NCBI GenBank assembly: GCA_030267965.1
Contig: BRYA01000817.1
Coordinates: 1 to 27,219 of the forward strand
Direction: 5' to 3'
From: Triparma columacea
Lineage: Eukaryota; Sar; Bolidophyceae; Parmales; Triparmaceae
DNA: 27,219 nucleotides
A model generated the notes under the pieces. That model did no database searches, was not told the origin of the DNA, and saw nothing but the letters and a program-made list of their open reading frames with translations. The stretch's first letter is position 1. Each line of letters opens with the position of its first letter. Positions 210 through 27,219 of this stretch are shown in pieces. The position numbers were made by a program, and so were the translations under genes.

Positions 210-3200
210 ATGGATCGCCGCGTCATGGAACTCAGCGAGGAAATTGGATCGTCGACGAACCAACGCGGGGGGAGCGATCGCGATGATCCCTCTTTCAAAG
301 GCATGGAGGGGGAGAAGCCTCCCCGCAGGATTGATGCTCCAGATCAAGAGGCTCCTCCTGGTGATGGTAGTCAACCAGACGACAACGCATCGAAGCAGTA
401 CGACGATGTTCTCCTGAAGACCAACTCAAATAACATTGCCCGGTCCAACAACAGACCACCCACAGACTCCAACCATAATACCTGCAAGCTGTTTCAATCC
501 AGCCTCATCATGCTAACAGCTGAAGGTAACTTCCCAAGGCCAGCCCTCCCGCGTGGGACTGTAAGGAGAGGAAGTTGGATGTGGATTTGCATAGTTACGC
601 TCCTCTCTCTCGTCTCTATGGTCAGAGAAGGTAAGAAAAGTGTACAAAGAGAGGGTTGAGGGGGGATTTCCATTGGGATGACAGCGCTGTAAACTAGATT
701 CCTTACCCTTCGCAGTCATTTCACTTCCTGATGTAATCTTCGCGACAGACACTTCCTCCGAGGTCCATTTCCACCTTCCAGTCCAGCGCCACTGGCTTGA
801 TGACCATGTTGACACCTTCGCCTCCGACAACCTCAGGAGCAGAGAAACAGAGGACTGCACCAGCCCCAGAGATCGTGTCCACGTCCACCAACCGCGCGCA
901 CCCGAGATTGCAGATAACGCCTCTTCCTTCCAGAGGAACTTTGAGGACGATTTCAGTCCGACCCCCTCGTGGTTAGACGAAATCGTCGCCACCCAACCCG
1001 GCAAAGCGCCCCACCTTGAGTTACAGCCAATCCAGATTGCTTCGACGCCCATCGCATTCGGGATCGTCGTCGATGATCCTATTGCGCAACCTGCTTCAAC
1101 ACCCATCCTGACCAGCCTCGTCATTAATTATCCTACTACGCAACCTGCGCCCGGACCCCCCGCGGGAGAAGGTAAGTAAGAAAGGGTGGTAGAGGAGGTC
1201 TAGGGGAGGTCAGGCAAAGTGCTACACACTTAGATTCTAACGTCCCAGTCTAGTCCCCTCGGTCCCGACCAACCCAGACTTTGCTCCTCTTGGAGTTGAG
1301 GGTTCCCCTTTGCAGGAGGACGTCATTCCTTCGGATCTTCCGAGCATGATGCGCTGGTTCCAGGGTGAAAACGTCAAGGCTTCCTCTTTGGACGCGAGTA
1401 GGGTCGTTGAGAAGCTTGTGGCTGCTACGACTAAAGCATTCCCAACGGTTCAAGGTAAGAGGAGGGGGGAGCTACGGTTACAGAGGGGAGAATCAAGCTG
1501 TTCTGCAGCTACTGTAGCTAATGCAACGTATCGCTTCACCCCACAATCACAGCCTCCTTGCCCTTTGCCGCCTCCTTGCCCTTCGCTGCCTCGCAGAACC
1601 CCTTTGCCCTCGTCATCTACGATCCGACTGCACAACCTGCACCTGAGCCCCCTGCACCTCTCACATGGTCAGACGGTCTCGTCTTGTTCTCCACGGCCCT
1701 CGACCTCTTTGCGATGGCTGCCTTCTACGTCATCAACCTCATGCCAAAGGCCTTCTCGTACAGGCTCAGGCTGAGTGGCAACTTCATCCGCACGTTCAAC
1801 ATCGTTATGCTCAACTGCATTGTGATGCAAGGTACCGTCGCTCAGTCCTTTGGGGCAGGGGAGGTGCGCAAGATGGCAAGGAGGGTCCTCAAGGGGGAGA
1901 AGACGAGTGGGGAGGTAACCTTTGTACGGAGAACATCGGAGGTTAGCATGGATAATATGAACGGACTGTTCAACACGGTCAGTAATTATGCAGGCTCCGG
2001 TATTAACACTGGCAACTCCATCATGGCGAATGGTGACACTACGATTCTAGCTGTTGGGCCGTATAAATGCTCAGAGGGGACTTGTGCAGATAGTTATAGC
2101 ATGCTGGCCATAGAAGACTTGAATGGAGAGGTCAAGTGTGTGGAGGACAATACAAGCTGTGTGTTGGATGGAGAGGATGAAAGAAGAGGGATGTGGGTGA
2201 AAGGAACTGGGAGTAGTACACTTATACTCCGAGCTCTCACCTTCGACAAGGGGTATAGAGATGGTGCTGGTGGAGGGGTTGCCGTTTGGGATGGTGCCAT
2301 AGTGACCATAAAGCTCTGTATCTTCTCCAACAATAGAGCTAATGATAGAGGTGGAGCAATTGAAGTTCGTAGTAGTGGAACTACTGTCAATGTTTACTCA
2401 ACAACCTTTAATGGAAACACAGCAGACACAGGAGATGGTGATGATATTTACAGGTCTTCTGGTACCATCACCATCCACAATACGTGCCCTTCTCCCTACT
2501 CCTCCAACATTCCAATCCAAGGTAAGACGAGAATGAGGATTGTGTAGTCTGTAGAACCATTCCTAACCCCACAACTAACTTTACGTTACCGCTGCACCAA
2601 TTTCTATTCCTGCCTCCTTGCACAGGATCCGCTTTGGACTTTGCTGGTGCTGTCGATGGCTCCTTATACTCTTTCAACTGTATCTTCTACAGCTGCGACG
2701 CTGGCTTCTCCAACCCAACCTCTGGCACATCAATCTCTGACTGCGAAGAGTGTGTTGCAGGAAAGTTCTCATCTGCTGGTTCTGGCACTTGTTCTGATTG
2801 CCTAAAAGGTAAGTACCCCACTTCTCTTCAATCCTTTCCTTTCAACACAATCTAACTCACTCCCAACAGGCACCTACAGCAGTTCTCAATCAGAGACTTG
2901 CACAAACTGCCCTGAAGGGAAGTACACTGAGGCTGACTCCTCCGCCACTTGCACTGGCTGCTCTGTGGGCAAGTACCTACCCACTGAAGGTTCCTTCTCC
3001 CAGTATGACTGCATCAATTGCGATGCAGGAAAGTACCAGGCATTCGCTGGTCAGGGTCAGTGTGAAGAGTGCTCAAGTGGAACATACTCTGCTGAAATGG
3101 CAAGGGTTTGTACTGCTTGCCCTCCAGGGACATATTCATCTACAGATTCATCTACAGTGTGCTCAGAGTGCACGGTAGGAAAATACACATCAAGTCCAGG

Positions 3201-3624
3201 TAGCACAACATGCTTTTATTGCCCATGGGGAGAGTACAATGTCGGCGTAGCCAACGTTGGATGTACATCTTGCGAGGCTGGAAAGGTTCTTGTCTTTGAC
3301 GTCTTTGATACTACTGACCGTGAGTGCAGGGCATGCCCTGCTGGGAAGTTCAGTGTGGTCGGAGACATCCTCTGCAAAACCTGTGAAGTTGGGTTTGTCA
3401 GCAACAATCCAGAAGGGGCCAGCTTTTGCGAGCCATGTTCAATTAATGCTTGGGAAGATCTGATTCTCGGATTTTTCCCAAAACACCCTGTGATTTTGAG
3501 GCATCGTGTTTTTGTTATTTGTTGTGCTCTTGGGCTTTCGGGTGGTGCAAATCGGCTAGAGGGGGGGTTTGAATTGCGCTATCTCGCTTCAATACTTAAA
3601 ATCAGAGTCATCCTCCCTAAATAA
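210..3624 (+). CDS. Beta-helix plus ephrin-receptor-like cysteine-rich membrane protein, 6 exons, 3' end probably truncated
   Basis: Exons deduced by phase are 210-630, 716-1171, 1254-1454, 1553-2521, 2626-2808 and 2870-3624, giving 994 aa. Every donor is AG|GTAAG and every intron is phase 1. Exon 1 ends in a hydrophobic segment (about residues 122-138), and another two lie near residues 400-440. Residues about 500-680 form a Pmp-like parallel beta-helix with the motif CIFSNNRANDRGGAI. Residues about 690-930 hold roughly ten GCC2/GCC3 (ephrin-receptor-like) repeats of the type CxxC-x2-GxYS/GKY. Proteins of this architecture are common in stramenopile algae and are probably surface or secreted; their role is unknown. 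The last 60 residues after the final Cys pair lose all repeat pattern and stop 27 bp before the next gene, so the original C-terminus is probably lost. The start at 210 is the first ATG after an in-frame stop. Confidence is high for the domains, moderate for exon 1. Confidence 0.72.
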
Positions 3625-3651: not shown

Positions 3652-4470
3652 ATGTCCTTCCGTACACCTCTCCATCTTCCTACGTTCCTCTCCCACCTCT
3701 CCTCAAAGCTCCACCGTACCCCCTGTTCCCCTCCAACCTTCCAGCTTCTCCCCGACCTCCACGCCTTTGCATTCAAGGGTATCCAAAAAGCCGCAACCCT
3801 AACACTCGGGGGTGGCATAAAGGAGAAGAGAAAAGCCGCTGTTAATATATGCTTATTCTCAGTACCTTCTAACCACCCTGATGGACTTACACCTTTGGGG
3901 AATATATTCGTACTCCTTACACTGAGGAGTGAATCCCTCCCCACACACAAAGGTCAAGTGTCCTTCCCAGGTGGTCATTTTGAACCTTCAGACGACTGGT
4001 CATCTTCAAAGTCCTCAAGTTTTGTTAACTGCGCGCTAAGGGAGACTGATGAGGAGTGTGGTTCCGGTGGTGGTATGATAGAATGGTGTAATGTGAGGGT
4101 AGTTGGTGTTTGTGATGCTGTTCCAAGCGTTACTGGGATGGATGTTTTCCCCGTTATTAGCTATGGGGGGGAACTTGATTTAAAGGGGGAAGAGGGGAGG
4201 GATGGTAGGAGTTTGGAGAGGGTTGTTAATGATATCGTGGGGGTGAGGTTTAACGAAACTAGAGATAGGGGTGAGGTCGATGATATATTCCTAACCAGCA
4301 TCGAAACGCTCATCTCCACAAAGGGGTCGAGGGAGCTTAAAAGGAAGGGTGTAAAACTACCGTTTGTTAGCCCCACGTTTCAAGCGGAATGCTGCGACAC
4401 GCAGATATGGAGTTTGACTGCGATCATGATTGAAGGGATGCTTAGGAAGTGTTTCGGATTCAAGTTATAA
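3652..4470 (+). CDS. Nudix hydrolase, coenzyme A diphosphatase type (NUDT7/NUDT8-like)
   Basis: This single-exon gene encodes 272 aa. Residues 89-108 match the UPF0035/CoA-pyrophosphatase signature (LTLRSESLPTHKGQVSFPGG), followed by the Nudix box end ALRETDEECG at 128-137. Members hydrolyse CoA and its derivatives to 3',5'-ADP and acyl-phosphopantetheine in mitochondria or peroxisomes. The Nudix box is unusual. About seven Ser/Lys-rich residues are inserted between the PGG-HFEPSD half and the REtxEE half, and the hydrophobic residue normally following the final Gly is Ser. The metal-binding E131, E134 and E135 positions are kept. The N-terminus is basic and Ser/Thr-rich without acidic residues until D35, suggesting mitochondrial import. 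The C-terminus FKL resembles but does not match a PTS1 tripeptide. The gene converges on the carrier gene with 81 bp between stops. Confidence 0.85.
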   Translation: MSFRTPLHLPTFLSHLSSKLHRTPCSPPTFQLLPDLHAFAFKGIQKAATLTLGGGIKEKRKAAVNICLFSVPSNHPDGLTPLGNIFVLLTLRSESLPTHKGQVSFPGGHFEPSDDWSSSKSSSFVNCALRETDEECGSGGGMIEWCNVRVVGVCDAVPSVTGMDVFPVISYGGELDLKGEEGRDGRSLERVVNDIVGVRFNETRDRGEVDDIFLTSIETLISTKGSRELKRKGVKLPFVSPTFQAECCDTQIWSLTAIMIEGMLRKCFGFKL

Positions 4471-4551: not shown

Positions 4552-5775
4552 TCATTTTCCCGTCCCCGGTACAGGGTACGGTTGATCGTCGTCCGCTGCA
4601 ACTTCTTGACTAACCCTATTAAATGTTTCCCTCCTCCCATCCTCCCCCTCTTCTTTCCTCTTCCCCTTCGTATCTTTAAGTTGTGCGTTTTTCTTAAGTA
4701 TAACCTTCTTCATGAATTCATAAGTACCGAACTGTATACCAATCATAGGTACAACGCTTAACAACCTCGGTGGTAGACCTTTATAGAACGCCCCCGCACC
4801 CTCTTCCTTTATTATCGTTCTCGCGCAGTCCATAATACCCTTATACGCAGTTGGGCTAGTGGATAGCTGGGTTACGAGACGGGTTTTTATCGTATCCATG
4901 GGGATCATTACGCAGACGGTGGCGGCGGAGGAGAGACAACCCATTGCGGTGTTCTCGAAGTTTGTGGGGGGACGGGAACAGAGGAGGAGCTGGGTGCGCT
5001 TTACCTGCTGGAATAAGACCCAGGTTAAACCGTAGGAGGGAATCTGAGGGAGTGGGGGTGGGGGAGGGGGGAAGGGAAGGGGGGAATGGTAAGTGTGCTT
5101 GCCTCTCCTCCATGTTTGGGTGGTGGAGTGTTAGGGGGTGCTCACCTTTCCAACAATCCCCGGGAACCAGCCTCCATAAAACCCCTTAACCCCATTGCTC
5201 GCGTAAAGCCCCTTCACCGCCTGAGGTAGGTTAGCGTACTTCCCAGCCATGATGTTATCCGTGATCATCATTTGAGGTGTAGATACTACCGAGCAGCATA
5301 TGGTGGCGATAGCTGACGACGTGAAATCAAGAGCTGGACCGAGGGAAGGACCCACGGAGGAGGAACTGGTTAAGAGGTTACCCATGACTCTACGGGTTAA
5401 TTCAAGGACGGCAAAATTACAAGCACCGTGGGGAACACTAAGCAACCACTGTGCCCCTGCCCCACGGGTTAGCATCTTGAAGTTGCGGGGTCTCATCAGC
5501 TGGGAGAAGGTTAGCTTTGCGCTGGTGGAGGGAGCCTGTTGTAGGATGGTCTTCATGGTGTTTGCTGGGTGCATTATTGTCTGTGCTGTGGAGCGGGATA
5601 TGGCACCACATATCATGGCCTCGGCGAAGTGTAGGGGTCGTGTGTATTCTGATGCTTGTGGTAGGTTTCCTAGTTTGTTTAGTATATTTAATGGATTCGA
5701 GGAGGATGCTTTGGAGGAGGATGCTTTGGAGGAGGATGGTTTGGTGGAAGGTGGAGTGGTGCTTTTTGAGGCCAT
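4552..5775 (-). CDS. Mitochondrial carrier family protein (SLC25-like), 2 exons
   Basis: Minus-strand exons are 5775-5146 and 5043-4552, joined in phase 0 (GGAAAG|GTGAGC ... CCCTCAG|ATTCCC), giving 373 aa. The join restores GKIPSYGLTWVLFQQ, a stretch I recognise from plant/alga members of this group. An acceptor nearer the coding body (5005) would delete it. Repeat 3 has the canonical PMDTIKTR signature and ends PPRLLSVVPMIGIQFGTYE, as in solute carriers of the inner mitochondrial membrane. Repeat 1 has a weak signature (HPANTMKTILQ) and repeat 2 keeps only STPQMMITD, so two of three salt-bridge sites are altered. Residues 1-25 are Ser/Lys/Pro-rich with a 5-residue SSKAS repeat. The substrate is not deducible; an S-adenosylmethionine-type carrier is only a loose relative. 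ATG 5775 is chosen as the start, but the frame stays open upstream to another ATG at 6045. Confidence 0.85.
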
Positions 5776-6426
5776 TTTTGTTGTTTCTTTTGTACGTGAT
5801 GATGTGTTTATTGTTGTATATCTTTCATTTCTTTTGTTTGTGTGTGTATGTGTTATTTGTGTGGCTGTATCTATGGTTTGTGTGTTTGTTTGTTGAGGTG
5901 TTGTCGTTGTCGGTGATGGGTGTCCATTTTTTGTTGTTTCTATTACGTTATTAACCTTTATATGACTATATCTTAAAGATTGACTAAATAACGATCTACT
6001 TGAGCATAATGATGCAAGGAATAGGAATATTATCAGCAAATTCATTATGAAATCACAAAATGCAAAAAGAGACTGAGGAAAGACAGAGGAGAGAGCGAAG
6101 GGGCCCAAGGACCAGAAGACAGAAGGGCCCACAGTGTTCCACTTTCCAATTCATTGGCAATTTTCTTTGTACGTTCATTTAATGATTACACACCACAACA
6201 GGGACAATCACATTCACTCATTACACATATCTAGAAAACATAACCACAAATGCGCCCTTTCAATCACAAATAACCCTTTCAGCCTCGCAGTTCTCACACT
6301 TCCAGACTAAATATTTCCCTCAAAACTAACAATACAACACAACTAATACAACCAACACGCCTAATCCCCTCCCCCTTATTCTAACCCCCCATACCCCCCT
6401 ACCCTCCCTCTCTCTAGTCCCCCTCC
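5776..6426. promoter_or_regulatory. Divergent promoter region between carrier and BRO1 genes
   Basis: This 651-bp spacer lies between divergent starts at 5775 (-) and 6427 (+). The half beside the carrier is TG-rich on the plus strand (5815-5895), so that gene's leader would be CA-rich. The half beside the BRO1 gene is a long pyrimidine-rich tract (6355-6426), a common feature of leaders in this window. I see no clear TATA box. Confidence 0.4.
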
Positions 6427-9591: not shown

Positions 9592-10839
9592 ATGCCGTTC
9601 TTTGTCGTTGGTCCTTTTGCAGAGCCCATGCCCAACCACCTTCCTTTTTCTCAAGCCCTCCGTTCATCACAAAAAATCCTCAGCTTAATGAGTGCGTTTG
9701 ATCAATCTACTAATCTCTCGTCGTTTCTTGCTCAACTTGGGCTTTCGGACGTCGAGAAGGCGCTCTCCGCCGAAGGTATTGATCTTGAGTCACTCAAAGA
9801 ATGCAACCAAGATGACCTCAAAGAACTGGGACTCAATATGGGGCAAAGGAAAACCATCCTGAGGGAGATCGGCAAGCTGTCACAGCCAGCTGTCATCGCG
9901 GAGCCTGTCTCCGCCCAACCAGTTTCTGAAAAAGTCCTTGAGCGACAGTCATCAGGGGGGGCACCATCAACTTACTTCTCCACACCCGCACCGCCGGTTT
10001 CCTCCCCTGCCCCTGTGCCTGCCGCCGATAAGTACGCAGGGGTACCCGACAACGTCCCCACAAAGATCAGGCTTCTCCCAGCCAAGAATGTGCCCGCGTT
10101 TATGGGTGCTGTCCTTGGCAACGTCAAAGTTATGTTGACTATTGACCCAAGGGGTAGCGGGAAGGAACTCATGCAGAAGGTGGCGGAGCAATGTGAAAAT
10201 CGCATCCTTAACGAAATCAAAGAAGAATGTTGCACTCCCTCGGATATGTCCATAGATGGCTTGTGGTTGGCCATCAAAGACGTGACAGCGGTGAAGGCGA
10301 CAGCGTTCTACACAACAGACGGGTTTCACATCAACAACGATGACATCCTCGCTGACCTTTTCAAAGGTGAAATCGTGCAGCATGCTGTTATTTGGGTGAA
10401 CGTAGAAGTTAAAATCGACTACGAGTGGGCTGAATGGTCCATCAGTGGGGACGCTGAAAAGGACAAGGTTGGCTTCCTTGGGAACGTTCTCGACACAACG
10501 GACGGTTGGGGAACAAGGAAGTTTACATTCACAGGGTGTGTCAAGGACAACAGAACTCCTACTTTAAGTTGGCAATCTTCCACGGGAGGTGTCAAAACGT
10601 ATGTCGTCTCAAATGCGTTCAATATCAGTGGGGGGAATATGTGTAAGTTCATTTTTTCTGGCAAAGGAAACGGAGAAGACAAGAGGGATCACATTCACCT
10701 CCAAGGCGGAAAAGCCATTACGCTCGCTGGCCACTTTGCCATCCATGAGAGGGCGATCGCCTACGTCACGGAGCAAGAGAAACTTGCCGAAGAAATTCGT
10801 AAGCAAAGCAACGGGACCTACTCCAAGCTCCAACTTTGA
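9592..10839 (+). CDS. SAM-domain protein with an unidentified C-terminal domain
   Basis: This intronless gene encodes 415 aa from the ATG at 9592, or 383 aa from the in-frame ATG at 9688, which would start just before the domain. Residues about 42-98 form a sterile alpha motif: LSSFLAQLGLSDVEKAL, a DLESLKECNQDDLKELGL core, then GQRKTILREIGKL. SAM domains mediate protein-protein oligomerisation or, less often, RNA/lipid binding. A Pro/Ser-rich linker (about 100-150) follows. The C-terminal 260 residues look like mixed alpha/beta with a ubiquitin-like beginning (TKIRLLPAKNVP...VKVMLTIDPRGSGKELMQKVAEQC) and end in a charged helix. I do not recognise the last ~150 residues (IDYEWAEWSISGD onward). 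A TAG lies directly before ATG 9592. Function is unknown beyond likely scaffolding. Confidence 0.75.
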   Translation: MPFFVVGPFAEPMPNHLPFSQALRSSQKILSLMSAFDQSTNLSSFLAQLGLSDVEKALSAEGIDLESLKECNQDDLKELGLNMGQRKTILREIGKLSQPAVIAEPVSAQPVSEKVLERQSSGGAPSTYFSTPAPPVSSPAPVPAADKYAGVPDNVPTKIRLLPAKNVPAFMGAVLGNVKVMLTIDPRGSGKELMQKVAEQCENRILNEIKEECCTPSDMSIDGLWLAIKDVTAVKATAFYTTDGFHINNDDILADLFKGEIVQHAVIWVNVEVKIDYEWAEWSISGDAEKDKVGFLGNVLDTTDGWGTRKFTFTGCVKDNRTPTLSWQSSTGGVKTYVVSNAFNISGGNMCKFIFSGKGNGEDKRDHIHLQGGKAITLAGHFAIHERAIAYVTEQEKLAEEIRKQSNGTYSKLQL

Positions 10840-12804: not shown

Positions 12805-13186
12805 CCTTCCTTACTTCTCATTTTCAGAGCTAACTTTCAGAATGTCTGGTTCCCTCTAATCTCCCTCTCCTCCGTGTCCCTAATCTCCCTCTCCTCCTTC
12901 TCCTCCTCTTCCAGCATCCCCAGCAGGCACTCCAGCCCCGCATCCTCCCCTAACACCGCCCATATCTCCGGTAAGTAGCACGTCTCCTCCATCGTCCTTC
13001 CTTACTTCTCATTTTCAGAGCTAACTTTCAGAATGTCTGGTTCCCTCTAATCTCCCTCTCCTCCGTGTCCCTAATCTCCCTCTCCTCCTTCTCCTCCTCA
13101 TCCAGCATCCCTAGCAGGCACTCCAGCCCCGCATCCTCCCCCAACACCGCCCATATCTCCGGTAAGTAGCACGTTTCCTCCATCGT
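12805..13186. repeat. 191-bp tandem direct duplication (two copies)
   Basis: Copy 1 is 12805-12995 and copy 2 is 12996-13186, placed head to tail with no spacer. I count about four base differences. Copy 2 carries the last ~53 codons of the RS-protein gene (stop at 13028 on the minus strand). Copy 1 is a downstream, untranslated duplicate of the same codons and stop. High identity implies a recent event, or ongoing unequal exchange or conversion. Confidence 0.93.
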
Positions 13187-14864
13187 CCTCCCAGCCATCT
13201 CGACACCCCTAAGTAGCAGCATCAACCTCTTGGCTATCTGACCGTTCAATATACCGTTCATTAGCTCAGTCATTATCAGGGTCTCACCGCGGTGACCGAC
13301 GTTTGCGGCGAGGGATGATATTGTGGTGGAGAGAAGGAGGGAGGAGGACATTACGGAGGATATAAGGGACAGCTCGTAGGCCTGGAGGAGCGTCTTGTTC
13401 TGGGACTGGATCTCGGGAAGTACTGAGTGGTTGGGTGGGGCAGGGGGGTGAGAATGATTTTCAACCTTTGTCTAGGATTTATCAATTACCCCCACCCCAC
13501 CCCTCCTGCCAGTCCCCTCACCTTCCTCCCCCACCTCCCTCGCCATTGCCCCGACGACCTCATCGAGTAAAACCCTCCTGGTCTCCTCCCTCCCCTCCAC
13601 CTCCATCCCCTCCCTCCCCACTACCTCCCCAACTTCCTCCACAACCTCCCCCACTATCTCGTCCAGCGTGCTAGTCAGGTTCTTGTTGAAAACGTACTCG
13701 GCCACGACCTCGTCTACGGAAGATGAGAACACGTCAGACATAAAAGAGGAGATGACCTCGTCGACGAGGGAATCGAGCACGCGGACGAGCGGGTGGGTAA
13801 CAGGGTTTCGGGTGTTGTAGTCGTCGTCCTTTGAAAAATAACTCTACGGGGGGGGGGGGTGGGGGAATGAAAGTTAGTCCCAGGTGTCTTGAAAAATGTT
13901 TAAATAACATCTTGCATCCTTCCTCGTTTCTCCCCCCCTCCCCTTCCCTCACCTGCACCATGTCGTCCACCGCCTCCTTAACCACCCCCTCACATATCTC
14001 CCCGCACCCCTCCCTCAGCACCCTTTCCAGCACCCCCCACGCCTCCCTCTTGATCTCCACCTTGCTCCTGTACCCCGGTACCCTGCGCCTCCGCTCGGCG
14101 ACCAGGTCCTCGTCCTCGTCGCTGCTGTAGTAGTAGTCCCTCCCCTCCCCCGCCAGGACGTCGGCGAGTATGTCTGGGATTATGTCCTCAGCTAGCAGGT
14201 CGGAGACGACCTCCTCCATGGCGTAGTAGGAATTCAACATCACAGAGGAACGACGGGAGAGGTGACGGGGGATGGTTATGGTTAGGGCGTACCAACGGCG
14301 GATGTACTTCTGGGCGATTATTGCGGCACGGAGGTGAGAGGATTTTACAGAGTGTGGACGCTTCTTGGACTTGGAGGAGGACTTGGGGGGGAGGGAGTTT
14401 GAGGAGATGGCGGTGAGAGGGGAGCGGGATGGGGTTGGGGGGGGGGATGTTGAGGAGGATAGGGGAGGGGAGGAGGGGGAAGGGCGGGAGGAGGAGGAGG
14501 AGGAGGAAGAGGAGGAGGAGGAGGAGGAGGAGGAAGAAGAGGAGGAGGAGGAAGAAGAGGAAGAACGATGGCGGCGACGGTGCTTGGAGCGATGCTTGGA
14601 GCGGCTTCGGTGCGACTTCTTCTTCTTCGGGCTGCGGCTCCGGTGCGTCTTTTTCTTCTTCTTGGACTGGTGCTGCTTGGAGGACTTTGAGGACTTCGAG
14701 GACTTTTTGGAGTACTTATTTGAGGACCTCTCAGAGGAGTGGTGTGACGAGCGGTGTGAAGAGTGTCGAGGTGAGTGCTTGGATCGGCCACGAGAGTTAT
14801 CTTCAGAGATATCGTCCAGGGAAGGAGGATTGGGAGGGACCCGAGAAAGGTCAAGGGAGGACAT
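13028..14864 (-). CDS. RS/SK-rich poly-serine protein with helical C-terminus, 3 exons
   Basis: Minus-strand exons are 14864-13953, 13843-13522 and 13422-13028 (donors CAG|GTGAGG and AAG|GTGAGG, acceptors CCGTAG and ACTCAG), giving 542 aa. Residues about 25-100 are an RS/SK domain with basic KKKKKTHRSRSPKKKKSHRS stretches, as in SR splicing factors and nuclear-speckle proteins. It runs into a pure 26-serine tract (14564-14487), then a Pro/Ser-rich linker. From about residue 176 the protein becomes ordered and helical: an IQ-like helix (IIAQKYIRRWYAL), several acidic DEVV-type helices, and a hydrophobic C-terminal helix bundle. No RRM is present, so it is not a classical SR protein. I cannot name the C-terminal domain. 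Nuclear localisation is inferred from composition. The 3' coding end is inside a tandem duplication. Confidence 0.75.
14487..14564. repeat. Trinucleotide tract encoding 26 consecutive serines
   Basis: The plus strand is GGA with interspersed AGA triplets. The minus strand reads TCC/TCT, giving an unbroken serine run in the RS-rich protein. The mixed codons show it is not one uniform triplet expansion. It creates a long open but spurious acidic frame on the plus strand. Confidence 0.9.
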
Positions 14865-16142: not shown

Positions 16143-18276
16143 TCATTCGGTAGAGAGGCGTACCAAGGTGGCCCGGTTAACAATCACGATGGCAGTGGCA
16201 GTGCCAAGCACGAAAATGAGGACGCAGAACATCACGCTGTTGCCCTCGTACTGAGCAACGTAGCCAGCGAGAATAGGGAAGAACATGCGAGCCAGAGACC
16301 CAGCAGATGCAAAGTAACCGAGGAGGGCACCCTGGGGTCGGGTGGAGACAATTTTTGAGAAGATCCCAATAACAGCAGTGTGGCCAATCGGGTATCCGAT
16401 AGAGTATAGGAGAAATACTGCGGCCGCGAAGCGGGTCTCTCCGAAGTGCGAGTGGTCCCCAAAGTGGATGAGTAGTCCAGTTCCAATACACATGACGAGC
16501 ATACCTGGGAGGAGTGGGAGGAGCAAAGAGAGGATTAAAACTCTAACATCATCATGTAATCGTAAATGCACTCCAATCTTTTGTGTGCGGCGGCCCTCAC
16601 CTCCAGTAATCATCTGCACGTCGGACCAGATCCTCCCAAGCAAGCCCATGCAGAGCAGGGCCACTACCCCCATGGCGCCACAGCTGCTCACGACGAAGCC
16701 AGCCTTCTCAGCGTCAAAGCTTACGAAATGGCTCACGGAAAAGTTGACGGCCAAGGTCTCGTAGACTGCAATGGAACCCTTTGTGGCAACGTTCAAGAGC
16801 ATACAGCCAAGTATCGTGACGTCGAAACGAGTCAGGGAACCGAGGACCACCTGATCAGCAAAGTCAGCTTCCCCGGACTCCAGATCAACAGCCTTCTTGG
16901 GTGCCTTGGCGGCCCTCTTTCTATCAGCGAAGACGGTACGAGTAAGGATGAGGGTGAGAGAAGACAGGACCGTCATGAACCATGCGGGCATGGAGAATTC
17001 ATTGAAGGAGAGGTAGCCTCCCAAGAAGTCCCTGGGGGGCGGGGGAAGGGGGGGGGGAAGGGGGGGGGGATAAATTAAAGTAGAGCAAGATGGTGGAGGG
17101 TGAGATTCAAGCAAGATTCTGGGGACACTCGTCCCGACCATTCCACTCTCACCTTCCACCTTCCATCACACCCCCCTCCTTTACAGCCCTGCAGATGAAG
17201 GCACCGACAACAGGCATCACAGTGAAGCCCGAGTACTGAACAGCAGTCAGATAGGACAACCAAGCAGTCCTCTTGTCCCTCGGAGTTATCTCTGCCACAT
17301 ATGCCCTAGTGACTCCCAAGGTTCCAGAGCCAAGGCCCATGACAATCTGAGCAAGAATCAAAAGAGAGAGCGGAGCGGAGTCATGGATGCTAGCCAAATG
17401 TGACGCAATCACAGGAGTGGATGCGGACACGTAGAGGAGGGTGCCAAACAGCAGCGTCGACAGCGACTTGGTGAGGGTGGGCTTGTAGCCCAAGGTCTCT
17501 GCAGGGGTGGGAGAGGGAGGAAGGGGAGCGAAGGGTTGTAAGTGGGAAGGAAGAAGGAAGTGCGGCACAGAAGGAAGTGCGGCACAAGAGGTTATGTTTT
17601 ACAGTGCATTAAGAAGTCGCCCAAGAAAGTAAACGGTAAGTCGCCTCCATGCTCCCCTTCTTGTCCATTCTCACCTGACATCTTCCCAAGAACAGGACTC
17701 ATCAATACACGCCCCCCCGAAAAGGAAGCGACGGCGTACCCCTGCGTAATCTTGTCGCCGCCTAAGCTCTTGTTCAACAACCACAGCGTAGGGAACATTA
17801 CTCCACGGGCTGTGTCACCAATCAAGATGGTGAAGCACACCACAAGGAAGGACACTGGGTCTTTAATAGTACGCGAAGAAGGTGAGCCGGAAGAACCAAG
17901 AAGGGACGTCGTCTGGGGGGGGATGTTGATGATGATGTGGGTGTCAGTTCATGGGTGACATCAAAAGGGAGATTCCCCCCGACATCTTCTCTGGCATCTA
18001 CCCTGAAACACCTCCAACCAGAGTACATCTCACCTCTGTGGCACCTCCATCGGTCTTCTCTAATCCAAAGTCCGCGCTCAGGTTCTTAGCAGCCTTAAAC
18101 TTCCCCACATTGGATGTAAATGGCCAGACACCATCGGAACTATCCTCGGAGGAGGGTGAAAAGGGGTCTGTATCAAGGTTGGCCTTCGTCTTAGCAATCG
18201 TAGCTGGCGTCAAGGGCTTCGGTTTCACAACCTTTAGCTCTGGAGCCACCGTTTTCTTGCCAAACCCAAATGGCAT
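16143..18276 (-). CDS. Major facilitator superfamily transporter, CLN7/MFSD8-like, 5 exons
   Basis: Minus-strand exons are 18276-18034, 17912-17675, 17498-17153, 17031-16601 and 16504-16143. Phases are consistent and the total is 539 aa. Exon 1 encodes a soluble cytosolic tail of 81 residues (Pro/Lys then Ser/Asp-rich). The TM part starts at PVSFLVVCFTILIGD. GYAVASFSGGRVLMSPVLGK corresponds to the TM2-TM3 motif A region. GLGSGTLGVTRAYVAEITPRDKRTAWLS followed by AVQYSGFTVMPVVGA matches the TM4-TM5 block of the MFSD8/CLN7 group of lysosomal/vacuolar transporters. TM7-TM12 follow in exons 4 and 5 after a Lys-rich central loop (FADRKRAAKAPKKAVDLESG). Substrate is unknown; family members have been linked to chloride or organic-solute export from lysosomes. 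No sorting signal is certain. The last intron is stop-free and a multiple of three. Confidence 0.85.
17034..17070 (+). other. G-rich homopolymer tract in an MFS intron (quadruplex-prone)
   Basis: The plus strand has four G runs of 5-10 bases separated by single C or AA spacers. On the transcribed minus gene this is a C-rich tract immediately before the exon 4 acceptor, where it serves as the polypyrimidine tract. G-quadruplex (plus) and i-motif (minus) potential is inferred from the pattern. Confidence 0.75.
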
Positions 18277-20773: not shown

Positions 20774-23700
20774 ATGAGCACTAAAGACAGCCCCCAGCAG
20801 GAGGACAAGCACATTGTAGCTAGCATCGTCGAGAATGGCCTCCAGGACCATGAAAAAACCATCGACATCGCCAGCGGGGTGAGCGAGGGGATATTTGGTG
20901 CTCCTGAAGATGTTATTGACTCTATCGACGACAATAATATGGAGAACGGACGGGTTTTTCGCGTCGACGATCCTCCTGACAGCCTTGGTGGCAACGAAAA
21001 TTCGATGGAGGAAGAGGAAAAAGCCGAGGGAAACAAAGCGTCCCTCATAGGCATCGGCGGAGCCACCCAGACTGATGAGGAGATTGACAGGGCTGTTGGG
21101 TGCGCGACTCCCAGCCACACGCCAGTCGGCTTTGCGACTGACAGCCTCGCCACTGCCGCTCAGTCCATAACATTAGATCCTGACAACACCGTAAGGAACA
21201 AAGACCCCCCACAGCCCCTCTCCAGCCCCCATCACGCCCCTTCCGCTATACAAGGACCAGTTGATATTGATTACACAGGTCTTGGACCCGAGCAAGGCAA
21301 ACTTGTGAAGCTTCTTGAGGAGAGAGGAGCCGTTGAAGGCCTCATTGACACTTCCACTGGCGACGACGTGAAAGTTTTAGGGCTCGCTGGTGTCTTCCAC
21401 GACGAGCGCGACAAGATCATTGACTTTCTCCTCACCGATTGTGAGCAGGGCAAGTTCCGAAGGAAGACCCTCGATGAGTATGATGAAGAGGGAGGAATCA
21501 TTCATAGACTCGTCCATTGGCAGCACTACGGCAGGGGAAATAAGTTCGTCGAATTTCTCCTTGACATCAGCGTCGTCGCTCCTGACGAATCGACGAGCAT
21601 TATGGAGTTGGCACCCCTTGATGAGGATGACCTTTCTGATGAGGCAACTGCCATGCTTGTCGAAATTCTAGCGTCAATAAAGACCAAGACTGTCAAACGA
21701 GGTGTCATTAAGGGCGAGCTCAGCTTCACAGATTTCGAGTTTGGACAAACTGCAGTCACCATGGCGGGAACTCTTAAGGCAGAGGAGAGAGCAACAGAGA
21801 TGAAACCACAAGTTAATGTTCGCACAGTCAAAAGATTAAAATCTGCTATGTCAAACGTTGGAAGGATAGAAAGCAGCATCAGCAGTGTCAAGAAAGGAGC
21901 TCACAAGGATGTATTTGTTTCATGGAAGGGAATTCTAGAGGAAGTCATGAAGCAGTTCAGACAGCCTGCTGTCATTGATGAGAGGAGGAAAAGACACTTT
22001 GTAGAGGAGGTCATGCCGAGAGCACCGCACCTGACAACAGAGGAGGAGGCAATGTTGGAGAGGGTTGGGAGGCTAGAGAAGGAACTTCACACAAAAGGGA
22101 AGAGAATCAAGGGGACACTGAAGGAGGGAGTCGACAAGTTCCTGTGGAGAGAGGGGGACAATGTGTGGGGAGGATTTGGAGTTACTGTCGACAAGGGGGT
22201 ACGGAGGTTGCTAGCTGAGCTCAGTTTAGGCAACACTTACACTTATGCAAGGCAGCATCTGAAGGAGAATGGCAATTTGCCTTGGGTTAATAGAAACAAT
22301 GTCAATGGAACTAGAAGTCACCATCAACACCATGGAGTTCACTTGCCTGGTCCAGCTAAAGACCGTCTCTTTGAAACCTGGTTCTCTTGGATGGAAATCA
22401 AGTCGAGCAGTGGCAGGGCAGCCTACTTGTTGGGGTTTGTGCCACTGACAGAGTACCCTGGAGAAGGTTTCAAGGACCTCAGCAAGAAGGGATTTGAGCT
22501 GGCTGAGGCTACAGGAGCCTACTTCTTCTATGAGATCGCTCCAAATGTCTGTAGGGTGACACGCATTCAGACCGTCAATCTGCATTTTACAGGCCTGCTT
22601 CAAAATGCAGTGATAGACAAAGCAATTGACTACCTTGCAAAGAGTCAGCTTGTTGAGGCCAACAGGTTGCAGGAGAAGTTTAGGAGAAACGGGAAGAAGG
22701 TTGATGCTGAGGTCAGGGGGGCCTTGGTGGAGAGGATGAAGGAGGGTGTTGAGTTGGATGAGGACCAGAAGAAGGTGTTTGGAGAGTTGGAGAAGCTCTT
22801 TGGTGGGGAGGATGAAGAAGGGTGGGGGCCTCTTGAGTCACCTTATGAGGGAGTGAAGATGGAGATGAAGTTCAAACAGCAAATGGAAGGACAAAGGAGC
22901 ATTGCACTAGGAAAGGCTAGCGGAATGGCAGACTGCACAGCAGAGGAGGCAGCTGCTTGGTTCTTTGAGTACTGCAGCAGGGAAAGAATCACCAAGGGGC
23001 TTGAAACAGGAGAGCTTGCTCGTCTAGAGATCAGGGAAGGGACTGAGAGGACCAACGAGAAGAAATTTGCAACAGTGAAGAAATTTCCCTTTCCAATTAC
23101 TAACAGAGAATTTGTGCAGACGATAATTTGGAAAAGAAATAGTACTGACTTTGTGAATGTGGCTGTGTGGTCAATTGACAAGAAAGTTGATTATGGAGGG
23201 ATAGGAAAGCTAGTAAGAGGCACAGCAAAGGCAATATTCACAATCACCAACACCCAGAAAATCAACGGCTTTCCACAATGCAAGATTGTGCTAATGCAAT
23301 ATGTTGACGCTGGAGGATATCTACCTGCAAAGTTGATGGAAAAACAAACACCAAAAGTATTGAGGGTTTTGAAAAGTGCAATTGAAAGCTTCGAAAAAGA
23401 CGTAGAGGTCGATAAAGCTGTACTGGCATCTCTTGCCAACATCATCAAGAACGAGCCTCAAGATTACACAAAGGAGGAAGAGGCCGTAATGAGGGACGGC
23501 AAGGAGTTCTACACAAAGTGCAATGCAGGCAAGAAATTCAAGGATGTGAAGACCCGAGACCAACGGGTCAAGTTGAAAACTGGGCACCTTGATGGTGAAG
23601 GCCTGGTGGTTGGCGTGTGCGAGACTGTCGTAGATGCTTCACTTGCAGAGTGTGTGGCATATGAGTTTATTAAGGATTCAAGGCAGAGGCAGGCCAAACT

Positions 23701-26389
23701 TGGGAAGAAGTACAAAACGATCGAAACAAAGAAATTGAATGGCCACTCACAGCTTTATTTAAACAGGAGGAGTCTTGGAGTAAAAGGGCTCTCTGATAGG
23801 GAGTGGAGAAGCTTTATTTGCTGGAAAAAGGAGGAAGAAGACAAAGTCTGTTGGACCGTGTACAAGGACACCAACTTGCTTGATGAAAAATTCCCATTGA
23901 GCTCTCAAACTGTGCTTGCAACAGTCAGAACTACCTGGATGTTTGAAGTACTCACAACCATTGGTGGCGTTCCCCAGACTAAAGTCACATTTGCTTCGAA
24001 GGTGGACATCAAGGGTTCTGTGCCAAGCTTTGTCATGAATCGCTTGTCAACCGGGTATGCAAGCAACATGATTGAATTGCGGAAGAAGTTTGATAAGAGT
24101 GAAGAGATTGATGCCTTCAAGAGACAGCAGATCATTGCAAAGTTTGAGGAGATTGCAATCGAGGGGGCACCAAGGATTGAAAGTCACTTCGACGAGATTG
24201 ACGGAGCTCAAGAGATCAGTAGTGGCTTGACTGGACAGACAATGATAAAGGCAGAGAAGGGAATAGGATGGGGAAAGACTTCAATAACTGTGAGAGCATC
24301 CCACAAGGAAGTTGCAGCATTCTTCTGGGGCCTTAAAAGTGGAGTTCACTCTCAGCTTGTGGTTCACAGAGTTAACAACAAATCATTTGTAATCACAGTT
24401 GAACAGGAAGGGCATCTCACAGCTGTAAGGTTCTCAGAGGCTGGCCAGATGAAGACAGACGTTGAAATGATGACTAGGCATAAGGGTTTAGGAAAAACTG
24501 CCAACAAACAGAGTGTAATTAAGCACCTGGGCATAGTAACTGATGCTGCTTACTACTTTGATAATCTGCTGAAGAGCAATGAAGCAGAGGAGAAGGATGG
24601 GAGGAGGTTTGGAGAGCAGCTGATGGAGAGAGTGAAGAAAAGGAAAATTAGGGACAGTAAAGTAGAGGTCGTGAGGGACTATATTGCTACCAATAGGACA
24701 CTGAGAGAGATTACAGAGCAGCATGATTTCATGAGAACTATGCTGTATGCTGTGGTTATGAACAAATTTAAAAGGAGAGCAACAAATGAGGGAGAAGATA
24801 AGAGTGAGGAGGAAGCCAGGGGTTGGGAGATTGGAAGTGCAATGACAGCAGTCATGTTGACTACTTTGACTGCTGCTCATGCTGTAGATGAGTGGGCCCA
24901 TCAATTCACTGAAGTGCAAAAAGTAATGAATGAACAAGAGTGGTTAAGGCCCATGCTTGAGGAGATTGTTATGAAACTATTTATGAAGTCAAAATTAGGC
25001 TTGAAGGCAAGGGTAACTGTTGGTGCCGTCACAAGCATGCTTGATTTGGTGACCGATGTGTATGTGACAAACATGTTTTGGAGAGATAAGAAGTATGGGT
25101 ACTTTAAGGCTTCTTTGGCAAGTTTGGTAGTGTCAATCGGGATTCAAATGATGTTTGTTTGGGGTCAAAACAGAAATTTGGGGATGAAGAGGGTGCTTAG
25201 AGAATGGTTTCCTATTTTGATTGGATTTAAACCGGCTGTTGATGCTTACAGGGTTGCAACAGGAGAAAAACAAAAGGCTGGACAAGTAATAGATGCACTG
25301 ACAGAGTTGTCTTTGATGAAAGTGATTGAGATGTTTGCTGAAGCCATACCTGGAGTGATTATCCAACTTATGGCGATTGCAACAAACAAAGGAAAGACTT
25401 CAAGGGCAGCATGGCTATCACTTTCAATTTCAGCATTGGCAACAGGCTTTGCATCAGCAAGTATCAGTTATGACTGGGACACTGACCCAGTGAAGAGAGA
25501 GCAAGTGCCTGACTTTTATGGTTATGTGCCTGCAAATCCCACAAAGAGATCTATTATATTTGGTTCAATGATGTTCTTTAGTGCAGGCATGCTTGTGATA
25601 AGGTGCATGACAATAGTTGTGTTAGGGCTACTTGGTGGTAGATGGGTCTTTCTCTATTTTGGGGCTGATCTTGGATTATACTTGTTGGTGAAGATCTTTA
25701 GAGGCGATTTTTGGTATTGGCCACGAGGTGCAGAAGTAGTATTTAGTATTATAGCTAGAACGTTGGTAAAAGTTGTAACAGACTTTACATCAATTGTGCA
25801 GTTTAGACATCCTAATGAGGTTGGAGGGATGTATTGGATGTTTGGATTTGTGTTGACAATGGGAAGTCTTCCAATAGCTATAATTCTAGCTGAAAGGGGA
25901 GGTGTTGCGGAAGAGGGGCTTAAATTGGCATGGAAAGTAGTTGGAACAATTATACCATGTACAGTCTTGATATTTGCTGTCTTTTTCTTCAACATTGAGA
26001 AAACATTTTGGGGCACCTTTTACAGCTGGCAAAGGGGTAAGGACTTGACAGTAAAGAATTTCAGAGAAAGTTCAGATGCTATAAAAGCAATGCTAACATT
26101 CCAAAGGTCAAAACATCATTGGAGGTCAATTGAAGAGGAAGTGAAAGTTTGGGTAGAAACTAACTGGGAGAGATGGGAAGAGGAACAGCCAGATTGGTTT
26201 GACGATGCAATGAAAACTAGAGTGCCAGTTATCTACATCCCAGGAGCAGGAGATGCTAGAAGGAGAGAGAGTGTTAGGAGAGCAAGTGTTGATGCTGAAG
26301 CTGAGGGTGGTGTAGCAGGTACTTTGAGAGCAAGTATTAGGAGAGCAAGTGTTGAAGGCGCTGATGGTGGAGATATCATAGGGATGTGA
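20774..26389 (+). CDS. Giant START-like repeat protein with C-terminal XK-like polytopic membrane region
   Basis: This intronless gene encodes 1,871 aa. ATG 20774 is the first Met; the frame is open upstream only without ATG. Residues 1-165 are acidic and disordered. A helical domain follows (LGPEQGKLVKLLEERG, about 172). At least three START/Bet v1-like units follow, whose C-terminal helices lie near residues 607, 849 and 1082, with a possible fourth near 1242. Each is preceded by a linker helix of the type TKEEEAVMRDGKEF. START folds bind lipids. From about 1410 there are eight or more TM segments, with VTSMLDLVTDVYV and VIEMFAEAIPGVIIQLMAIA recalling the XK/Xkr scramblase family, and HPNEVGGMYWMFGFVLTMG near 1679. 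The tail has three RRxS sites, likely kinase targets. I recall similar proteins from stramenopile algae, without known function. A lipid-transfer or scrambling role is inference. Confidence 0.85.
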   Translation: MSTKDSPQQEDKHIVASIVENGLQDHEKTIDIASGVSEGIFGAPEDVIDSIDDNNMENGRVFRVDDPPDSLGGNENSMEEEEKAEGNKASLIGIGGATQTDEEIDRAVGCATPSHTPVGFATDSLATAAQSITLDPDNTVRNKDPPQPLSSPHHAPSAIQGPVDIDYTGLGPEQGKLVKLLEERGAVEGLIDTSTGDDVKVLGLAGVFHDERDKIIDFLLTDCEQGKFRRKTLDEYDEEGGIIHRLVHWQHYGRGNKFVEFLLDISVVAPDESTSIMELAPLDEDDLSDEATAMLVEILASIKTKTVKRGVIKGELSFTDFEFGQTAVTMAGTLKAEERATEMKPQVNVRTVKRLKSAMSNVGRIESSISSVKKGAHKDVFVSWKGILEEVMKQFRQPAVIDERRKRHFVEEVMPRAPHLTTEEEAMLERVGRLEKELHTKGKRIKGTLKEGVDKFLWREGDNVWGGFGVTVDKGVRRLLAELSLGNTYTYARQHLKENGNLPWVNRNNVNGTRSHHQHHGVHLPGPAKDRLFETWFSWMEIKSSSGRAAYLLGFVPLTEYPGEGFKDLSKKGFELAEATGAYFFYEIAPNVCRVTRIQTVNLHFTGLLQNAVIDKAIDYLAKSQLVEANRLQEKFRRNGKKVDAEVRGALVERMKEGVELDEDQKKVFGELEKLFGGEDEEGWGPLESPYEGVKMEMKFKQQMEGQRSIALGKASGMADCTAEEAAAWFFEYCSRERITKGLETGELARLEIREGTERTNEKKFATVKKFPFPITNREFVQTIIWKRNSTDFVNVAVWSIDKKVDYGGIGKLVRGTAKAIFTITNTQKINGFPQCKIVLMQYVDAGGYLPAKLMEKQTPKVLRVLKSAIESFEKDVEVDKAVLASLANIIKNEPQDYTKEEEAVMRDGKEFYTKCNAGKKFKDVKTRDQRVKLKTGHLDGEGLVVGVCETVVDASLAECVAYEFIKDSRQRQAKLGKKYKTIETKKLNGHSQLYLNRRSLGVKGLSDREWRSFICWKKEEEDKVCWTVYKDTNLLDEKFPLSSQTVLATVRTTWMFEVLTTIGGVPQTKVTFASKVDIKGSVPSFVMNRLSTGYASNMIELRKKFDKSEEIDAFKRQQIIAKFEEIAIEGAPRIESHFDEIDGAQEISSGLTGQTMIKAEKGIGWGKTSITVRASHKEVAAFFWGLKSGVHSQLVVHRVNNKSFVITVEQEGHLTAVRFSEAGQMKTDVEMMTRHKGLGKTANKQSVIKHLGIVTDAAYYFDNLLKSNEAEEKDGRRFGEQLMERVKKRKIRDSKVEVVRDYIATNRTLREITEQHDFMRTMLYAVVMNKFKRRATNEGEDKSEEEARGWEIGSAMTAVMLTTLTAAHAVDEWAHQFTEVQKVMNEQEWLRPMLEEIVMKLFMKSKLGLKARVTVGAVTSMLDLVTDVYVTNMFWRDKKYGYFKASLASLVVSIGIQMMFVWGQNRNLGMKRVLREWFPILIGFKPAVDAYRVATGEKQKAGQVIDALTELSLMKVIEMFAEAIPGVIIQLMAIATNKGKTSRAAWLSLSISALATGFASASISYDWDTDPVKREQVPDFYGYVPANPTKRSIIFGSMMFFSAGMLVIRCMTIVVLGLLGGRWVFLYFGADLGLYLLVKIFRGDFWYWPRGAEVVFSIIARTLVKVVTDFTSIVQFRHPNEVGGMYWMFGFVLTMGSLPIAIILAERGGVAEEGLKLAWKVVGTIIPCTVLIFAVFFFNIEKTFWGTFYSWQRGKDLTVKNFRESSDAIKAMLTFQRSKHHWRSIEEEVKVWVETNWERWEEEQPDWFDDAMKTRVPVIYIPGAGDARRRESVRRASVDAEAEGGVAGTLRASIRRASVEGADGGDIIGM
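26264..26376 (+). repeat. Internal RRxSV repeats at the C-terminus of the giant protein
   Basis: AGGAGAGCAAGTGTTG and close variants occur at about 26276, 26336 and, degenerate, at 26262. They encode RRESV, RRASV and RRASV within an acidic/Gly context. The arrangement suggests a short duplicated phosphorylation module. Confidence 0.7.
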
Positions 26390-27150
26390 GGTGGGAAGAC
26401 AAAAGTTAGCAGTGTTGTGCCCAAAGATGAGAATGGGGCATGACTAATAAGGCAGCAACATTTGTAGGGAAATTTGATTTGATTTGGTATAGTTATGATT
26501 ATTGTGTGTGTGTTTTTAGGTGTTTGTTAAGTATGTGGGAGTGTTATAGTGTTTTGTGAGTATTTGAGAAGTGGAGTTGATGTGTTGTAGGAGTGTTAAA
26601 GTTGCTTGTGAGTATTGTGGAAGTGGAGAAGAAAGAAAAGTGAGTGTTAAAGTAATTTGTGGGTATTGAGGATGTGTAATAGATTTGCACGAGGTTTTGG
26701 AGAGTTGTGGCAGTGTTATAGTGATTTGTGAGTATAATGGAAGTGTAGTGGATGTGTATGGGGATGAATTAAAGGAAGGAGAGTGTGGTTGTAGAAAGGA
26801 GTTATGGGTTGAGAGAAGAAGAGAAGAGGGTATAAGGTGAAATAATGTGTGTAAGTGTAGAAGATGTGTATGAAGATGAATTGGGAGGGTGAGTGTAGTT
26901 TTTGAGAGAAGTGAGAGGATTTAAGGGTTGAGGGTAGAAGAGAGGAAGGTGTAAGGTGGAATGATGTGTGTTAGTGTAGTAGATGTGTATGTAGATGAAT
27001 TAAATGAGGGTGAGTGTAGTTTTAGAGAGAAGTGAGAGAAGTTAAGGAAAGAGAGTAGAAGAGAGGAGGGTATAAGGTGGAATGATGTGTATAAGTGTAG
27101 AAGATATGTATGAAATGAATTAAAGGAGGTTGAGTGTAGTTGTGAAGAGG
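26390..27150 (+). repeat. Subtelomeric cytosine-poor repeats, two families
   Basis: Family A (26540-26760) repeats AGTGTTAWAGT-N-TTGTGRGTATT at 26540, 26592, 26643 and 26712. Family B is a 112-120-bp unit anchored on GATGAATT at 26763, 26875, 26994 and 27114. It contains GGGTATAAGGTGGAATGATG, GTGTAGAAGATGTGTATG and GGTGAGTGTAGTT. The plus strand is almost free of C. No credible coding frame is present. The downstream edge abuts the telomere directly. Confidence 0.85.
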
Positions 27151-27219
27151 AGGGTTAGGGTTAGGGTTAGGGTTAGGGTTAGGGTTAGGGTTAGGGTTAG
27201 GGTTAGGGTTAGGGTTAGG
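27151..27219 (+). repeat. Telomere, (TTAGGG)n
   Basis: About 11.5 perfect TTAGGG units run to the end of the window without interruption. The G-rich strand is 5'->3' toward the end, as expected for the right-hand terminus of a chromosome. Confidence 0.98.

Follow-up and report, generated by a model that had tools for sequence, protein, structure and literature searches.

A telomere-adjacent gene family of Triparma columacea joins a predicted array of START domains to an XK-related membrane module

Bridge-type transfer proteins carry lipids from one leaflet to the leaflet that faces it, and scramblases are expected to be needed to equalise the leaflets (PMC9436381); cooperation between the two has so far been studied on pairs of separate proteins. 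In the human VPS13A-XK pair a lipid transfer activity is coupled to a membrane protein of the XK family (PMC9436381), and in yeast scrambling by Ist2 sustains lipid transfer by Osh6, such that a scramblase supports a lipid carrier (PMC12617493). Here we describe START5-XK, a gene on a 27,219-nucleotide contig of the alga Triparma columacea (BRYA01000817.1, assembly GCA_030267965.1; the whole stretch is called ‘the window’ below), whose single chain fits this paired transfer-scramblase idea because five predicted START units and a scramblase-like module stand together in it. VPS13A and XK, in contrast, are the products of two genes, the first of them a bridge-type (chorein) protein, and they do not form a large family as the Triparma fusion does; Ist2 is a scramblase of another type, with its ORP carrier bound via a disordered tether, whereas the Triparma parts are fused. 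Because nature supplies the one-chain fusion in hundreds of variants, the coupling can be tested directly.

Xkr8, Xkr9 and Xkr4 resemble the membrane part of START5-XK in fold and in the charged residues of transmembrane (TM) helices 1 and 3, and Xkr8 also has a regulated C-terminal tail (PMC10938166). Xkr8 differs in its caspase site, its basigin partner and its lack of START domains (PMC8500837, PMC10938166 and, in part, general background), while the Triparma protein adds a helical connector of ~120 amino acids, the START array and an RRxS tail. Another protist, Plasmodium, likewise has a large START family that is mostly subtelomeric, fam-a, and several fam-a proteins transfer phosphatidylcholine in vitro (PMC5113031, PMC4242472); as this rodent malaria family shows, START genes of subtelomeric location can make up a set of lipid carriers. 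Its members, however, are ~300 amino acids long, have six exons, consist mostly of START and are exported, with no XK part described in the sections of those papers available to us. In the same algal group as Triparma, the Parmales, START was reported to be strongly enriched and to occur in multi-domain fusions with enzymes, transporters and kinases (Ban et al. 2023, PMC10328945); the text of that paper as available to us names no XK fusion, subtelomeric placement or cassette exchange, and it contains ‘telomer-’ and the whole word ‘chromosome’ zero times each. Literature searches found no paper combining Triparma and subtelomer, one general review and nothing more on Bolidophyceae and scramblase, and, judged by title, none on algae that pairs subtelomeric, START domain and XK-related; the portions of the literature so covered held no described system matching the START-XK fusion and its genomic behaviour.

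The gene reads off the end of its contig, where three features follow one another:

20774..26389, + strand: START5-XK gene, 1871 amino acids, intronless, reading toward the telomere
26797..27141, no strand: 121-bp subtelomeric satellite, ~2.9 copies, between the gene and the telomere array
27151..27219, + strand: terminal telomere array of the contig, 11.5 copies of TTAGGG

The frame is uninterrupted from 20588 to the stop codon at 26387-26389, and the ATG at 20774 is the start position also in paralogs L005, L006 and L008, so the gene boundaries proposed in a first-pass annotation of the window hold. That annotation had also called the gene telomere-adjacent, and the TTAGGG array confirms it: START5-XK is the last gene before the telomere on its contig, with 761 bp between its stop and the 69-bp array. 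Since paralog similarity continues ~14 codons beyond the stop, the C-terminus of the window copy is slightly short. A phage origin was considered and rejected, since tblastn with the protein as query matched none of 50,697 phage records.

Five START or START-like units precede the membrane part:

21371..21859, + strand: START-like unit A, residues ~200-362, from the way secondary-structure elements succeed one another in model m919547c7eded and a weak profile match to D
22130..22678, + strand: START unit B, residues ~453-635
22826..23389, + strand: START unit C, residues ~685-872, a highly variable cassette
23540..24088, + strand: START unit D, residues ~923-1105
24209..24565, + strand: START-like unit E, residues ~1146-1264, shortened

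By sequence the assignment is weak until the chain is folded, because the window protein scores 18.4 bits with the Pfam START model (PF01852), under its cut-off of 22; a distant relative (P0038) passes it at 22.3. The structure predicted for residues 150-1290 (mean predicted local distance difference test score, pLDDT, 78.5) contains five units with the helix-grip fold of the START/StARkin superfamily and, on this model, the units are members of the StARkin fold class despite the sub-threshold score. Profile comparison gave 98.2% for B-C, 97.5% for B-D, 99.8% for C-D and 75% for C-E, with 25% for A-D, 4% for B-E and ~1% or less for A with B, C or E; the D-E value is unusable, the two segments having overlapped. 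At least three, perhaps four, repeats led by a linker helix had been noted in the first pass, with structure prediction as the proposed check: as far as that check could run, START folds were obtained, and helical linkers precede each of units B to E in the model, but the count was slightly low, there being five units of which the fifth is shortened. Searched with the Pfam START model, the genome returned 35 matches; with one family-type START unit as query there were 868 first-look candidates, and the 88 scored yielded 123 matches. Counts of START made with the Pfam model in Parmales may thus be too low, since the units of the window fall under its cut-off.

The remainder of the chain is made up of a connector, the membrane module and its tail, the first two as follows:

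24590..24973, + strand: helical connector, residues ~1273-1400, ~120 amino acids
24995..25999, + strand: XK/XKR membrane module, residues ~1408-1742 (PF09815; Foldseek and VIA)
25043..25057, + strand: acidic pair of TM1, D1424 and D1428, equivalent to Xkr8 D26 and D30 by motif spacing (rat XKR9 alignment)
25295..25381, + strand: hydrophilic TM3 with E1511, K1516, E1519, E1523, P1526 and Q1531 (rat XKR9 alignment, family rows)

The XK-related Pfam model (PF09815) scores 27.8 bits over residues 1415-1696, above its cut-off of 24.8. In the structure predicted for residues 1160-1871 (mean pLDDT 82.6) the module is visible, with the eight TM helices and two half-membrane helices of the XKR fold, and it matches XKR4, XKR8 and XKR9 (Foldseek and VIA); the conserved acidic residues of TM1 and the hydrophilic TM3 of the family are present as well. 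In score, fold and charged residues alike the module is a member of the XKR family, which bears out the XK/Xkr-like membrane part with at least eight TM segments read earlier from the sequence, the XKR core being recovered by the structure comparison suggested with it. A phmmer alignment to rat XKR9 sets DLVTD against DLVAD in TM1, a stretch not significant alone, and K-x2-E-x3-E-x2-P against R-x2-E-x3-E-x2-P in TM3. Rat XKR9 was also matched among solved structures, with an E-value of 0.0065 for the single-sequence XK piece and 0.13 for the whole protein; profile searches of the same structures with alignments A1 (42 XK proteins after a 75% identity filter, from 120 listed of 356 found) and A2 gave weak START and unrelated matches and missed XKR.

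Xkr8 scrambles phosphatidylserine and a sphingomyelin analogue far less well when D26, D30, K134, E137, E141 or R183 is mutated (PMC8500837). From their identical spacing, D1424, D1428, K1516, E1519 and E1523 correspond to the first five of these, and TM3 lines up with Xkr8 D129, K134, E137, E141 and the PQL kink, a step from XKR9 to Xkr8 numbering that rests on motif spacing. Five of the six lipid-path residues are thereby aligned, and all five are conserved: among 55 family rows (window included), D1424 is D in 49/49 and D1428 in 50/50 of the rows having the residue, K1516 is K in 53 and R in 2, and E1519 and E1523 are each E in all 55, as is E1511, at the position of the structural Xkr8 D129.

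Three XK-related matches in short frames (241-640 amino acids; C528:27823-28311, C470:4815-5282 and C133:39666-40175) have the highest PF09815 scores and are possibly ancestral stand-alone XK genes. Those on C470 and C133 deviate from the outward terminal pattern described below; the C528 match points outward, with 5.1 kb between it and the end of its contig.

Beyond the membrane module the protein ends in a basic-motif tail:

26249..26350, + strand: C-terminal tail with three RRxS motifs, residues 1826-1859, a candidate kinase-controlled regulator

After residue 1800 there are 123 occurrences of RRx[ST], spread over 49 of the 52 family rows, where shuffling each tail predicts 5.5; these rows are related, so the count speaks for conservation and not for independent origin. 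Such a site near the C-terminus is also kept in three of the four distant relatives looked at. The tail of Xkr8 has been proposed to act as a plug that phosphorylation or cleavage releases (PMC10938166), and by analogy the RRxS tail is likely to be a switch of the XK module.

START5-XK belongs to a subtelomeric multigene family. A whole-protein search of its own genome (best 25 of 1210 candidates scored) turned up 24 more long copies, intronless and 66-77% identical; for most of these the alignment begins at or before residue 150. The XK module alone gave 90 matches (90 scored of 767 candidates), at 74-85% identity besides the query itself. Pooling these lists with a telomere sample, START/XK-family sequence is found at 195 or more contig ends, distributed over 186 contigs, a count that leaves out EGF-containing rows and the XK rows C528, C470:4815 and C133:39666 and in which ends known from the START D query alone were not checked for XK. 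All matches listed point toward the contig end that they adjoin: at 105 minus-strand ends they are no further than 8.6 kb from the contig start (76 ends up to 8.6 kb, additional ones up to 7.2 kb or 4 kb), and at all 90 ends on the plus strand no further than 7.8 kb from the contig end. When telomere-bearing ends are taken in the order of their contigs, 16 of the first 20 have an XK-containing, telomere-pointing copy (one, on C2, decayed); of the other four, C53 has a START unit within an EGF-like frame that adjoins a kinase frame, and three have none within 4 kb. The chromosome ends of a genome from the sister group of diatoms are largely devoted to one lipid-protein family.

Several observations concern these ends more generally. 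The decayed copy (L009, C2:1-1541), the only one among the 20 sampled ends, consists of XK module pieces at ~30-65% identity beside the telomere. A second family often lies near contig ends (L041, C53:1-4000, and others), with an EGF-like ectodomain and TM part (by eye) and a START D-like unit, adjoined in L041 by the kinase frame; the telomere-end gene of L044 (C68:1-4000) has EGF-like repeats and a kinase, and that of L045 (C70:1-4000) a cysteine-rich ectodomain of ephrin-receptor-like type, followed up by eye to a part with multiple TM segments. Among the first 100 places listed per search, telomere repeats stand at contig ends exclusively, and contigs C70, C71, C75 and C364, 65-84 kb long, have TTAGGG arrays at both ends. 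For five of eight Parmales a scaffold N50 of 63-83 kb has been published, and the genome may be composed of several hundred chromosomes below ~100 kb.

Copies differ in architecture. The window copy has one XK module, while in others a unit of ~600 amino acids (helical connector, XK and tail) is tandemly repeated, with two or more XK matches listed at six ends in the XK-module search and at 12 in the XK-related search, and three on C479. The 3650-residue open frame of C84 comprises two whole START5-XK units, the 3678-residue frame of C422 a partial first unit (from START C) followed by a second, and C717 one complete unit and, after it, another whose XK match counts one stop. A new N-terminal domain in the very long frames (3650-4247 amino acids) was considered and rejected, the upstream parts of three of them being more START and XK units.

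The family is under purifying selection. Median ratios of non-synonymous to synonymous change (omega; 28 pairs of eight paralogs) are 0.24 for XK and 0.30, 0.24 and 0.27 for START B, C and D, those for C and D being rough as synonymous divergence is high (pS above 0.5); A reaches 0.37, E 0.38 and the N-terminus and tail 0.43, with one pair at 1.0 in the N-terminus. Divergence is patchy along the chain: over codons 241-360 seven paralogs share 85-89% identity with the window, and over codons 961-1080 they share 48, 50, 95, 52, 47, 89 and 80%. Among the START C cores of 26 copies (325 pairs), 263 pairs have 40-60% identity, 5 have 60-70% and 57 exceed 70%; for START D, 88 pairs fall below 50%, none at 50-60% and 237 above. 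Twenty copies had been added to the set for the likeness of their START D to that of L041, which biases the frequencies of D types; the eight loci from the whole-protein search serve as control. Distances in the two halves of a domain correlate at 0.87 for C and 0.84 for D, but those of C with those of D do not (r -0.04, P 0.62, 2000 permutations), and the eight copies chosen without regard to D behave alike (0.94 and 0.96 within domains, r -0.09 between). The START domains therefore move as blocks. Two copies were dropped before these counts, L055, with two D-type units (a D-D and not a C-D tandem), and L060, without a C unit; including them gives r -0.14. The independence of C and D types, together with the mosaic identity, in this short-read assembly indicates exchange between chromosome ends.

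We propose a speculative model in which START5-XK acts as a membrane-anchored lipid-handling machine, its START array supplying or gating an XK scramblase and the lipid specificity of that array being diversified by subtelomeric recombination; we would put the probability of this at roughly 0.5. Five START/StARkin domains in a row would take up lipids on the cytosolic side (the side suggested by XKR topology) and either hand them to the XKR-type scramblase module of the same chain or gate that module by lipid. The RRxS tail may form a phosphorylation-controlled plug, as in Xkr8, and recombination between chromosome ends would swap START cassettes, such that a single cell could hold a repertoire of differing lipid-binding arrays. 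The first-pass annotation considered a single gene and suggested a self-contained lipid bridge or shuttle, a reading that is partly supported. A plain housekeeping lipid bridge, alone, does not explain an outward-pointing subtelomeric family with START exchange.

A number of points weigh against this model. Several START domains sense or regulate instead of transferring lipids, and a shared fold shows no function. No equivalent of Xkr8 R183 was found, R1544 being the sole basic residue on helix 1544-1570 and 20% conserved. The single RNA-derived entry among the matches listed, the transcriptome entry P0155, covers the XK part at 52% identity. Lastly, the acidic TM1/TM3 cluster does not prove scrambling, as it is common to the whole XKR family (PMC8298096).

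Possible, if on balance unlikely, is that the variable START cassettes recognise foreign, kin or damage lipids and that binding opens the conserved XK effector, the output being phosphatidylserine exposure, leak or cell death, with inter-membrane transfer not central and subtelomeric diversity of the var kind. The var genes of Plasmodium, which encode PfEMP1, are a telomere-linked multigene family that diversifies by domain recombination and so have a telomeric position and domain cassettes in common with START5-XK, but the cassettes are surface adhesin domains and the proteins are unrelated. The free reassortment of discrete START C types with D types would suit such recognition, as would the lower diversity of units A and E (non-synonymous differences, pN, 0.09 and 0.11, vs 0.19-0.26 for B-D) and the receptor-like genes (EGF-like with kinase, EGF-like with START, ephrin-receptor-like) at some other telomeric ends. 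In C the hydrophobic strand faces are almost as variable as the other faces (entropy 1.11 vs 1.33 bits) and in D slightly more variable (0.90 vs 0.81 bits), which is only suggestive of cavity-facing diversification. Against recognition, whole-domain positive selection is not seen in the omega medians, the single N-terminal pair at 1.0 notwithstanding, and the START arrays are probably cytosolic, which suits intracellular but not surface recognition. We are rather doubtful of the fuller form of this idea, a counterpart of the var or NLR systems that is based on lipids and diversified by recombination, in which START-array receptors are shuffled between telomeres and XK scrambling is the effector. 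As to what the repertoire is for, we give lipid supply or gating an even chance, and recognition of foreign lipids distinctly less.

It seems improbable that the XK module is a non-scrambling membrane anchor or dimerisation scaffold and that the START array does the work, by lipid transfer or storage. XKR7 has XKR4-like motifs, yet phosphatidylserine scrambling was not detected for it (PMC10938166), and two or three tandem XK modules per chain are what a scaffold would predict; the charged residues of TM1 and TM3, however, are 96-100% kept down to ~31% identity, beyond the needs of an anchor. We consider it very unlikely that the family is a passenger, spread by sequence exchange between chromosome ends with small benefit to the cell: terminal position, outward orientation, mosaic copies and the decay on C2 would all agree with this, but internal stops are rare (in 0/25 whole-protein copies, 2/90 XK matches and 3/81 exon-like matches), omega medians stay at 0.24-0.43 and relatives persist between species at ~30% identity. 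Finally, there is hardly any chance that contigs breaking or chimerising in a repeated gene created false terminal positions and false mosaics, for although the published assembly is Illumina only, made with Platanus (PMC10328945), random breaks would give both orientations where all matches listed point outward, telomere repeats lie beyond the gene at 16 of the 20 sampled telomeric ends, and the longest exact stretch common to copy pairs is short (median 47 bp, under 150 bp in 376/378 pairs), such that short reads mostly separate the copies and chimeric assembly is unlikely to be a general cause of the mosaics.

Two full-length protein searches returned 38 and 27 proteins, in which every match with a named organism is a Triparma (T. 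columacea, T. laevis f. inornata, T. laevis f. longispina, T. strigata and T. verrucosa) and the others are metagenome proteins. The XK-module search found 356 proteins, and the 120 listed are nearly all from metagenomes, besides one from T. columacea and the transcriptome entry; absence of the family outside Parmales is not proven by these searches.

Elsewhere in the window, four neighbours can be named:

3652-4470, + strand: Nudix-like (by eye)
5131-6132, - strand: mitochondrial-carrier-like (by eye)
9592-10839, + strand: SAM-domain protein (Pfam)
16143-17159, - strand: transporter of major facilitator superfamily (MFS) type, just below the Pfam cut-off

A 191-bp unit is tandemly duplicated at 12805-13189, with 97% matches. 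Receptor-like gene pieces lie at 1558-2547 and 2965-3624 (+ strand), the second with an Ephrin_rec_like match of 62 bits; in wording they resemble, by eye, the telomeric gene of L045.
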